Shown: positions 28,500-31,151 of the stretch, one piece after another
How positions within the stretch are numbered: position 1 is the first letter of the stretch
Layout of the letters: every line of letters starts with the position of its first letter
From: Fundidesulfovibrio putealis DSM 16056
GTDB taxonomy: Bacteria > Desulfobacterota > Desulfovibrionia > Desulfovibrionales > Desulfovibrionaceae
Direction: 5' to 3'
NCBI RefSeq assembly: GCF_000429325.1
Contig: NZ_AUBQ01000004.1
Coordinates: forward strand, 62,001 to 126,000
Length of the DNA stretch: 64,000 bases
Notes under the pieces: model-generated
The model's input: only the letters and a program-made list of their open reading frames with translations
What the model was told of the DNA's origin: nothing
Database searches by the model: none
Position numbers and translations under genes: made by a program

Positions 28500-29672
28500 A
28501 TGCCTCAGTTCAAGATGGCCGATCGTCTGGCCGCACTTCCTCCGTATCTTTTCGCCGAGATCGACCGCGTCAAAAACGAGGTGAAGGCTCGCGGCGTGGA
28601 CATCATCAGCCTCGGCATCGGCGACCCCGACATGCCCACCCCCGACTTCATCGTGGACGCCCTGTACGCCTCCGCCAAGAAGCCCGAGAACCACCAGTAT
28701 CCATCCTATGTGGGCCTGCGCACCTTCCGGTCCGCCGTCTCCACCTGGTACAAGGGCCGCTTCGGCGTCGACCTCGACCCCGACAACGAGGTCGTGAGCC
28801 TTATCGGCTCCAAGGAAGGCATCGCGCACTTCCCCCTGGCCTACGTGAACCCCGGCGATCTGGTGCTGGTGTGCACCCCCAACTACCCCGTGTACAACGT
28901 GGCCACCGGGTTCGCGGGCGGCACCACCAAGTTCCTGCCCATGACCGACGCCAACGACTTCCTGCCCGACCTGGACAGCGTCACCGACGCAGAATGGGAC
29001 AAGGCCAAGATGATCTTCACCAACTTCCCCAACAACCCCACCTCGGCCTGCGCCCCCAAGAGCTTCTACGAGAAGCTGGTGAAGAAGTGCCGCGAGACCA
29101 ACACCATCCTGGTGGCCGACGCCGCCTACACCGAGATGTACTACAACGAGGCCGCCAAGCCCATCTCCGTGTTCGAGATCCCCGGCGCCAAGGACGTGGC
29201 CATCGAGTTCCACTCTCTGTCCAAGACCTACAACATGACCGGCTGGCGCATCGGCATGGCCGTTGGCAACGCCGATTTGGTCAAGGGTCTGGGCAAGATC
29301 AAGGAAAACGTCGACTCCGGCATCTTCCAGGCCGTGCAGGAAGCGGGCATCGCGGCCCTTGAAAAGGGCGACGCCTATGCTGAACAGTTCCGCGCCGTCT
29401 ACAAGGAGCGCCGCGACACCCTGGCGGCGGGCCTGAAGAAGATCGGCATCGACTTCCGCCTGCCCGAGGCCACCTTCTACTTCTGGTGCAAAGTCCCCCA
29501 GGGCCACGAGACCAAGGCCTTCGTGACCAAGGTGCTCCAGGAGACCGGCGTGGTGGTCACCCCCGGCAACGGCTTCGGCTCCCCCGAGGCGGGCGAGGGC
29601 TACTTCCGCATCGCCATGACCGTAGGCAAGGAGAAGATCGAGGAGGCCCTGTCACGTCTGGCCAAGATGTAG
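28500..29672 (+). CDS. dapL: LL-diaminopimelate aminotransferase
   Basis: PLP enzyme converting tetrahydrodipicolinate directly to LL-diaminopimelate, a shortcut in lysine and peptidoglycan precursor synthesis. 390 aa. Diagnostic stretches are ISLGIGDPDMPTPDFIV, NHQYPSYVGLRTFR, LIGSKEGIAHFPLAYVNPGD, and FHSLSKTYNMTGWRIG with the PLP Lys. ATG 28500 has AAGGAGCGTACC upstream; the in-frame start at 28362 is upstream of the promoter and rejected. DapL occurs in Desulfovibrio, chlamydiae, cyanobacteria and some archaea, which supports the taxonomic guess. folK follows directly. Confidence 0.93.
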   Translation: MPQFKMADRLAALPPYLFAEIDRVKNEVKARGVDIISLGIGDPDMPTPDFIVDALYASAKKPENHQYPSYVGLRTFRSAVSTWYKGRFGVDLDPDNEVVSLIGSKEGIAHFPLAYVNPGDLVLVCTPNYPVYNVATGFAGGTTKFLPMTDANDFLPDLDSVTDAEWDKAKMIFTNFPNNPTSACAPKSFYEKLVKKCRETNTILVADAAYTEMYYNEAAKPISVFEIPGAKDVAIEFHSLSKTYNMTGWRIGMAVGNADLVKGLGKIKENVDSGIFQAVQEAGIAALEKGDAYAEQFRAVYKERRDTLAAGLKKIGIDFRLPEATFYFWCKVPQGHETKAFVTKVLQETGVVVTPGNGFGSPEAGEGYFRIAMTVGKEKIEEALSRLAKM

Positions 29673-30199
29673 CGGCCTTTGTCGCCCTGGGCTCGAACCT
29701 GGGCGAACCTGCTGCGATACTCACGCGGGCTGCCGGGCGCATGGACGGGATTCTTCCCGGCGTGCGGCTGGCGGCCCGCTCGCGCATCTATCACAGCGCG
29801 CCCCATGAACTGGCTCGCCTGGAGTACCCCTGGGCGGAGGTGTTCCGGACGGTGAGGGAGGAGCCTCCGGCAACGCCCTGGTACGCCAACATGGTCGTGC
29901 GCCTGGGCTGCGTCCCGCAGGTGACGCCTGAAGCCTTGTTCGAAGCCCTGATGCGCCTGGAGGCGCAGCTCGGGCGAAACCGGCTGATGGAGCCGCGCTG
30001 GGGTGCGCGTTTCGTGGACATCGACCTGCTCGCTTTCGGGCGGGAGCGCCGCAGCACTGAACGCCTGACCCTGCCGCATCCGCGCATCGCGCAGCGGGCC
30101 TTCGTGCTGCTGCCCCTTGCGGAAATCGCGCCGGAGGAAGTTTCGCCGGAACTTTTCGAAGGTTTGTCTTTTTCAGCGTGCGATACTATGATATTCTGA
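29669..30199 (+). CDS. folK: 6-hydroxymethyl-7,8-dihydropterin pyrophosphokinase, start codon unclear
   Basis: Transfers pyrophosphate from ATP to 6-hydroxymethyl-dihydropterin in folate synthesis. HPPK motifs: AFVALGSNLGEP at the N-terminus, NRLMEPRWGARFVDIDLLAFG in the centre (only its core is quoted from Arg to Leu), and LPHPRIAQRAFVLLPLAEIAP. Homology begins at or just after the dapL stop, but no ATG, GTG or TTG exists in frame between GTG 29486 (deep inside dapL) and the conserved FVALGSN. The given start is therefore where similarity begins, not a real start codon. AGGAGG lies at 29641-29646, so a non-standard start such as GTC 29651 or ACG 29654 is possible. About 175 aa. Confidence 0.8.
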   Translation, partial: VAAFVALGSNLGEPAAILTRAAGRMDGILPGVRLAARSRIYHSAPHELARLEYPWAEVFRTVREEPPATPWYANMVVRLGCVPQVTPEALFEALMRLEAQLGRNRLMEPRWGARFVDIDLLAFGRERRSTERLTLPHPRIAQRAFVLLPLAEIAPEEVSPELFEGLSFSACDTMIF

Positions 30200-30227: not shown

Positions 30228-30500
30228 ATGTGGAAATTCGTCATCTTCGCCGTCGCCGCGTTCATCCTCTGGAAGATGTTCGCCGGCGACATGAAGCGTC
30301 GCAAGGAAGAAGCCAAAAAGGAACAGGAAACCCTTATCGCCAAGGGCGAGATGGTCAAGGACCCGGCCTGCGGCTCCTATGTTTCCCCGGACAACTCCGT
30401 ACGGCTTCGGGAAGGCGACAGGACGCTGCACTTCTGCAGCTACGAATGCCGCGACAAGTACCTGAAACAACTTGAGTCCTCGAAAACGAAAGAGGGGTAA
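30228..30500 (+). CDS. Membrane-anchored YHS/TRASH-like metal-binding protein
   Basis: 90 aa. An N-terminal membrane segment (MWKFVIFAVAAFILWKMF) is followed by a Lys/Glu helix and then a small Cys domain: VKDPACGSYVSP, LHFCSYECRDKYL. The Cys pattern and the DPxCGxxV start are those of YHS/TRASH domains, which bind metal ions. The domain probably faces the cytoplasm. It lies 29 bases after folK and 3 bases before the aldolase gene, so probably co-transcribed. Function unknown. Confidence 0.75.
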   Translation: MWKFVIFAVAAFILWKMFAGDMKRRKEEAKKEQETLIAKGEMVKDPACGSYVSPDNSVRLREGDRTLHFCSYECRDKYLKQLESSKTKEG

Positions 30501-30503
30501 CGC

Positions 30504-31151
30504 ATGAAATTTTTCCTCGACAGCGCAAGCCTGGATGAGATCAAGGCAGCCAAGGACATGGGCATGCTCGACGGCGTGACCACCAACCCTACCTTGTTTT
30601 CCAAGGAGAAGGGCAACTGGCACAAGATCGCCGAGGCCATCTGCAAAGAGGTCGACGGCCCGGTGAGCCTGGAAGTGGTGGGCACCACCGCCGAGGAAAT
30701 GCTCAAGGAAGCCAAGGATCTGGTGAAGTTCGGCCCCAACGTCGTGGTCAAGATCCCCATGCTGCTGGAAGGCCTGAAGGCCGTGCGCCAGTTGAAGGCC
30801 CAGGCCATAGACGTGAACGTCACCCTGATTTTCCAGCCCCTCCAGGCCCTCATGGCTGCCAAGGCGGGAGCGACCTTCGTGAGCCCCTTCGTGGGGCGCA
30901 TTGACGCCATCGGCGGCGACGGCATGGCCGTGGTGGAAGAGATCGTCACCATCTTCCAGAACTACAGCCTGGAAACCCAGGTGCTCGTTGCCAGCATCAG
31001 GAACCCCACTCACATCGTGCGCGCGGCCCTGATGGGCGCGGACGTTTGCACCGTGCCCTTCTCCGTGATGAAGGAGCTCATCAAGCATCCCCTCACGGAC
31101 CTTGGCCTCGATGCCTTCCTCAAGGACTGGGGCAAGGTGGAGAAAGGCTAG
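30504..31151 (+). CDS. fsa: Fructose-6-phosphate aldolase / small transaldolase
   Basis: Class I aldolase of the TalC/FSA type: splits fructose 6-phosphate to dihydroxyacetone and glyceraldehyde 3-phosphate, or acts as a transaldolase. 215 aa, the normal subfamily length. MKFFLDSASLDEIKAAKDMG, GVTTNPTLFSKE and the Schiff-base Lys in VVVKIPMLLEGLKAV are present, followed by NVTLIFQPLQALMAAKAGA. Cytoplasmic. AGAGGGG precedes ATG 30504. Whether it acts as FSA or transaldolase cannot be decided from the sequence. Confidence 0.92.
   Translation: MKFFLDSASLDEIKAAKDMGMLDGVTTNPTLFSKEKGNWHKIAEAICKEVDGPVSLEVVGTTAEEMLKEAKDLVKFGPNVVVKIPMLLEGLKAVRQLKAQAIDVNVTLIFQPLQALMAAKAGATFVSPFVGRIDAIGGDGMAVVEEIVTIFQNYSLETQVLVASIRNPTHIVRAALMGADVCTVPFSVMKELIKHPLTDLGLDAFLKDWGKVEKG

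Follow-up and report, generated by a model that had tools for sequence, protein, structure and literature searches.

The gene for IF3, infC, starts at AUU, AUC or AUA and is autoregulated by its own product. All 64 codons were reportedly covered in E. coli by Hecht (2017), and data on Deinococcus are reported by Baudet (2010). According to a review, the central U is the only start-codon base that is universally conserved (PMC4611024). In Streptomyces the start of sigR is reported to be GTC in 32 of 34 species and GTT in 2 of 34; it follows AGGAGGTG, the second residue is threonine, and initiation is repressed by IF3 (PMC5472188). Because threonine codons are ACN, the base after the sigR GTC is A. 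This start was proven by mutation and N-terminal data, and its authors knew of no GTC start documented earlier (PMC5472188). Weak starts are also reported for staphylococcal ccpN (AUA) and cvfC1 (AUU), where they give about 10% of the output of AUG in poor medium (PMC13009471).

The window analysed here is a 64,000 nt stretch of Fundidesulfovibrio putealis DSM 16056 DNA (contig NZ_AUBQ01000004.1). On its forward strand, dapL (28500..29672, stop codon TAG 29670-29672) encodes an LL-diaminopimelate aminotransferase of 390 residues, identified from its open reading frame and a match to NCBIfam NF006756 (608 bits, cut-off 507). The folK frame, in the -1 phase relative to dapL, is open from 29384 to a TGA ending at 30199. 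Its translation matches Pfam PF01288 over the full length of the model (91.7 bits, cut-off 25.7) and NCBIfam TIGR01498 (88.9 bits, cut-off 54.1), and aligns to HPPK structures of the E. coli type. The LGSN strand and the GxR..D-D region form invariant columns of the alignment, and this is the sole folK match in its own genome. The HPPK domain begins at AFVALGSN, whose alanine codon at 29675 lies just past the dapL stop.

The first-pass annotation had remarked that folK lacks a standard start codon at its N-terminus, and this holds. The nearest candidates are GTG 29486, 63 codons upstream of the alanine of AFVALGSN and deep in dapL, and ATG 29741, 22 codons past that alanine and within the HPPK domain. 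An AGGAGG that it had placed at 29641-29646, inside dapL, was found there in the window sequence. This predicted folK Shine-Dalgarno sequence, whose GGAGG is conserved in relatives, precedes a GTC at 29651-29653 by 4 nt and an ACG at 29654-29656 by 7 nt. A rare start codon of the GTC or ACG type, a -1 frameshift from dapL and a sequence error had been offered as explanations. If folK starts at the GTC, read as fMet, it encodes 182 residues (29651..30199) and overlaps the 3′ end of dapL by 22 nt (29651..29672).

Two genes after folK lies a fructose-6-phosphate aldolase/transaldolase gene (30504-31151, TIGR00875). Between them, an ORF of 90 codons (30228-30500) encodes an N-terminal hydrophobic stretch and a CSYEC motif, and gave no Pfam or NCBIfam match. 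The family of the D. vulgaris transaldolase gene DVU1658 is reported to cluster with folK in several organisms, and the same 2007 study proposed a D. vulgaris relative as a missing dihydroneopterin aldolase (PMC1971073).

Relatives were sought in 59 genomes, including that of the window, and in 199 of the family, of which 179 matched. The folK set comprised one locus from each of 165 fetched genomes in 47 genera, a part of all matching genomes. In 86 of the 165, folK abuts or overlaps the 3′ end of dapL. Only 6 of these 86 have an ATG, GTG or TTG within 20 codons before the domain; the other 80 have none, and in 61 of them the open frame upstream is wholly without a standard start. The 80 genomes span 22 genera, one of another family. 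The absence of a standard start is thus beyond chance, being common to 80 of 165 surveyed genomes. The suggestion of a sequence error is excluded, since dozens of independent assemblies lack an ATG there. Overlapping relatives include Pseudodesulfovibrio sp. MAG6 (L207), with ATC at the site described below, and Desulfovibrionales DJKA126 (L209), with GTC followed by A; in Desulfovibrionaceae nDJH2bin10 (L208) folK is detached. From these three named records we take the family to be Desulfovibrionaceae, a large group of sulfate reducers.

Lineages with standard folK starts exist alongside (for example G183, G197 and G004). Among the other 79 genomes, 61 have a standard folK start and no dapL found upstream. 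In 14 dapL lies further away, with a standard folK start in 10 and none in 4. The last 4 have neither dapL nor a near standard start, two of them having a distant TTG at -24 or GTG at -37. The four detached genomes in which no ATG, GTG or TTG lies within 20 codons (G001, G003, G005 and G011) do not have ATC, or GTC/GTT followed by A, at the dapL site. In the sister species G005, folK is located beyond the dapL stop and has no standard start; an ATA after AAGGCGAGAAC is the best candidate (L002:1477-1479). In G001 and G003 (L005, L007) a GC-rich inverted repeat, GGGCTCCCC...GGGGAGCCC, lies between dapL and folK. In genus g50 (L325, L326, L327 and L328) the profile match to folK falls in two same-frame pieces separated by about 20–30 additional residues; the middle of HPPK carries a lineage-specific insertion there.

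A start further downstream was considered as a general answer and rejected. Twenty-three of the 80 genomes have no ATG, GTG or TTG within 29 codons past the alanine of AFVALGSN. Downstream starts would also cut into the conserved first strand; in 9 of the 80 such a triplet occurs no more than 4 codons past the alanine.

The dapL–folK junctions of the 80 genomes were aligned by the dapL frame, and the folK-frame column containing the window GTC 29651 was examined. It holds ATC in 53 genomes, GTC in 15 and GTT in 12, and ATG, GTG or TTG in none of the 80. Alignment of relatives, which the first-pass annotation had put forward as a check, thus gave a conserved codon and no ATG in that column. GGAGG lies exactly 4 nt before the site codon in 75 of the 80 genomes and no further than 17 nt upstream in 78 of them, compared with 6 of 20 controls; the two that lack GGAGG retain GAGG. 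With a conserved ATC, GTC or GTT adjoining the Shine-Dalgarno sequence in 80 of 80 genomes, a rare start codon is strongly supported.

The codon alone proved too loose as a signature: GTC is present at the aligned position in 6 of 14 detached dapL genes, where it arises from CTG or TTG followed by TC. GTC or GTT is followed by A in all 27 overlapping genomes that have it, and requiring this A reduces the matches among detached dapL genes to 1 of 14. The base after ATC is A in 25, C in 18, T in 7 and G in 3 of 53 genomes. The signature of ATC, or of GTC/GTT followed by A, was scored in the 104 genomes with dapL minus 4 without a folK locus in the set. All 80 overlapping genomes that lack a standard start carry it, compared with 3 of 20 detached or standard-start genomes (Fisher p = 1.7e-16, ignoring kinship, by which genome counts are inflated). 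Among outgroup dapL genes (80 loci, 79 usable), ATC, GTC or GTT was found in 4; these include the overlapping family members L207 and L209 and the detached family member L208. A pair test was made on supported branches of a DapL tree built without the last 14 codons. It gave 5 pairs for the signature, 0 against and 3 ties (p = 0.0625), which is consistent with the association but not significant alone. The Shine-Dalgarno sequence gave a weak result as a tree-based test.

Thirteen further genomes lay outside the first folK set, G123 and G134 having earlier entered through dapL only. The folK gene overlaps dapL in 12 of the 13; in G227 it is detached, with an ATG. No nearby standard start is present in 11 of the 12, and all 11 carry GTC or GTT followed by ACG (confirmed in G126). 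Most of these genomes belong to genera of the first set and so are not independent lineages. G162 has a GTG over a TGA stop, yet retains ATC at the site.

The codon after GTC or GTT is ACG in all 27 genomes, and GTC/GTT genomes, the window included, might start at this ACG (29654-29656), with only the ATC genomes starting one codon earlier. ACG is itself near-cognate, its 7 nt spacing from AGGAGG is better than the short 4 nt spacing of GTC, which counts against the latter, and it recurs in the 11 further genomes. It also follows GTT in G086, where the coding constraint of dapL is gone. A start at ACG would not, however, need the preceding G-T-pyrimidine, which is invariant in the GTC/GTT class. 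Genomes with ATC have ACG but often also CAG, TCG, CCG or GCG as the next codon; where one of these four follows, ATC is the sole candidate start, which points to the earlier codon as the site. The universality of the central U (PMC4611024) and the proven sigR start, GTC with threonine as the next residue (PMC5472188), likewise favour GTC. We therefore regard initiation at ACG as unlikely and ACG as probably codon 2 (Thr).

Among columns from -12 to +9 codons, none is comparable to the site except the NTA column over the dapL stop, the only other -1-frame column rich in ATN or GTN (62 of 80). Ribosomes ending dapL might restart at this NTA (GTA 29669-29671 in the window), which occupies the usual place of ATGA/GTGA overlaps and is replaced by GTG in G187, G061 and G162, where the stop is TGA. 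We think this extremely improbable. The first base of the column varies (GTA 49, ATA 13, CTA 12 and TTA 3 of 80) while the bases after it are fixed by the stop codon, and a restart there would leave unexplained both the ATC/GTC/GTT site and the species without dapL described below.

Preference for GTC, GTT or ATC as the folK start also accords with codon usage in dapL. The site codon is ATC where dapL has GTA followed by TCN, or GCA followed by TCA; GTC arises from NNG followed by TCA, and GTT from GTG followed by TTA. In the ATC class, all 11 genera with valine at the site encode it by GTA, whose share in any of the 17 remaining valine columns does not exceed 0.229. Likewise, all 9 genera of the GTC/GTT class with serine at the site use TCA for it, against at most 0.157 in the 10 other serine columns. 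All 12 genomes of genus g29 have TTA at the site, and none elsewhere in the part of dapL scanned. The two glutamate columns that form GGAGG are the most GAG-biased of 12 (0.967 and 0.909; next, 0.693). The folK start thus appears, from these sequence comparisons, to shape dapL codon choice. By the genetic code, an NTG start in the -1 phase is possible only over a TGN in dapL, which is Cys, Trp or the stop codon TGA, so that a standard start is rarely available. This requirement accounts for ATC, GTC or GTT inside dapL and for the rare GTGA at a TGA stop in G187, G061 and G162.

A dapL ortholog is missing from four species of genus g25 (G086, G145, G204 and G211), where the best matches are paralogs of 38–44% identity; the G204 assembly is only 69% complete. 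Orthologs of 77–78% identity are present in G030, G107, G183 and G197 of the same genus. In the species without dapL, the DNA before folK bears a TTGACA motif. Their folK start regions retain a Shine-Dalgarno sequence and read GGAGGCGCC-GTT-ACG (G086), GGAGACTCC-ATC-ACG (G145), GGAGGAAGCGCC-ATC-TCG (G204) and GGAGGAAGCGTC-ATT-TCG (G211), and in G086 and G211 the whole folK open frame is without ATG, GTG or TTG. Loss of dapL lifts the bar that the overlap sets on ATG, yet none has evolved, which supports both the site and some use for the weak start. This persistence suggests that the weak start is also retained for its own sake, for whatever benefit it may bring. Two g25 genomes have a second, ATG-started folK in a different context (L301/L302 in G190 and L289/L303 in G183), which is either a true duplicate or contamination.

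The four species without dapL also bear on the proposal that programmed -1 frameshifting towards the 3′ end of dapL yields a DapL–FolK fusion protein. Such a fusion is suggested by the position of folK in the -1 frame of dapL, by the open -1 frame before it and by a Shine-Dalgarno-like sequence internal to dapL and upstream. However, the folK start region is retained where the dapL ortholog is missing. Slippery heptamers are not conserved: just 22 of the 80 overlapping genomes contain a strict X XXY YYZ, mostly CCCGGGC. The -1 frame ahead of the dapL stop may be open for as few as 28 nt. When the window and one relative were folded (100–110 nt each), the window RNA gave a z score of -0.47 against shuffles. 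Frameshifting would also leave the rule of ATC, or GTC/GTT followed by A, without explanation. The fusion is not supported, and we consider it most improbable.

Taken as a whole, the comparisons indicate that folK is probably translated from its own start inside dapL, at GTC 29651-29653, to give a protein of 182 residues. AGGAGG 29641-29646, formed by the dapL Glu-Glu codons, would position the 30S subunit at this GTC; initiator fMet-tRNA would read the triplet as a start, against IF3, so that FolK would begin M-TSGQDVAAFVALGSN. Ribosomes stopping at dapL codon 29670-29672, which begins 19 nt past the GTC start, may assist by restarting. Across the family the start triplet is AUC or GUC/GUU, with AUU in one relative; all of these have U in the middle and end in a pyrimidine. 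As triplets of this class are repressed by IF3, FolK output is probably low and IF3-sensitive, a prediction made from codon class.

The folK site shares sequence features with known non-canonical starts: it is near-cognate, with a central U and a third base other than G, it is conserved across species behind a strong Shine-Dalgarno sequence, and no usable ATG, GTG or TTG is present. The sigR start resembles it in its GTC with a minority of GTT, threonine second, a strong AGGAGG-type Shine-Dalgarno sequence and conservation across species. In contrast, sigR encodes a sigma factor, and its start is reported as conserved within one genus and experimentally proven (PMC5472188). The folK start is predicted from comparison of genomes, and AUC and GUY alternate there across a family. 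It is also embedded in dapL, whereas the excerpted text of the sigR report does not mention embedding in an upstream gene (PMC5472188). Staphylococcal ccpN and cvfC1, as reported, share with folK a conserved weak start and a strong Shine-Dalgarno sequence, but have other codons, are other genes, and their output was measured experimentally (PMC13009471). Like folK, the downstream genes of ATGA/GTGA overlaps, a form taken by G187, G061 and G162, lie in the -1 frame and begin at the end of the upstream gene. Unlike them, the 80 genomes all have TAA or TAG as the dapL stop, and their folK is predicted to start some six codons before it, with a non-standard triplet.

The infC gene of the window's own genome (L287:1471-1473, contig C3) has no ATG, GTG or TTG in its open frame. 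ATA is the only near-cognate codon in frame among the triplets scanned; it lies behind GAGGAGG, 10 codons before the domain match, and overlaps the end of thrS, in line with known infC starts. infC and folK thus share a non-standard third base, a strong Shine-Dalgarno sequence and overlap with an upstream gene. infC is autoregulated by its own product, whereas FolK has no such direct link.

An indirect link can be imagined. FolK is needed for folate, from which fMet-tRNA obtains its formyl group. In E. coli, according to a review, initiation becomes less faithful when one-carbon metabolism is disturbed (PMC7949028). The weak folK start might then act as a folate gauge, a feedback loop in the start codon, although we consider this quite improbable. 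If it were true, a fall in folate would relax discrimination against AUC, GUC and GUU, FolK would rise and folate would be restored; the loop would also account for ATC, ATT or GTT in species without dapL, which are free to regain ATG.

Starts of this kind are known from infC, sigR and ccpN. In the open-access literature searched, neither a non-standard start of folK nor the dapL–folK junction was described, and the folK instance appears to be undescribed there. It stands out in being embedded in another gene and conserved across genera. Gene finders limited to ATG, GTG and TTG would misplace or lose folK in many species. The overlap reveals selection on the start codon through the bent codon usage of dapL, offering a route from sequence to other hidden starts, and the invariable A after GUY can be tested as a rule for how initiator tRNA reads weak starts. 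If confirmed, folK would add a second family to the natural GUC/GUU starts, one in which AUC and GUY interchange over long evolution.
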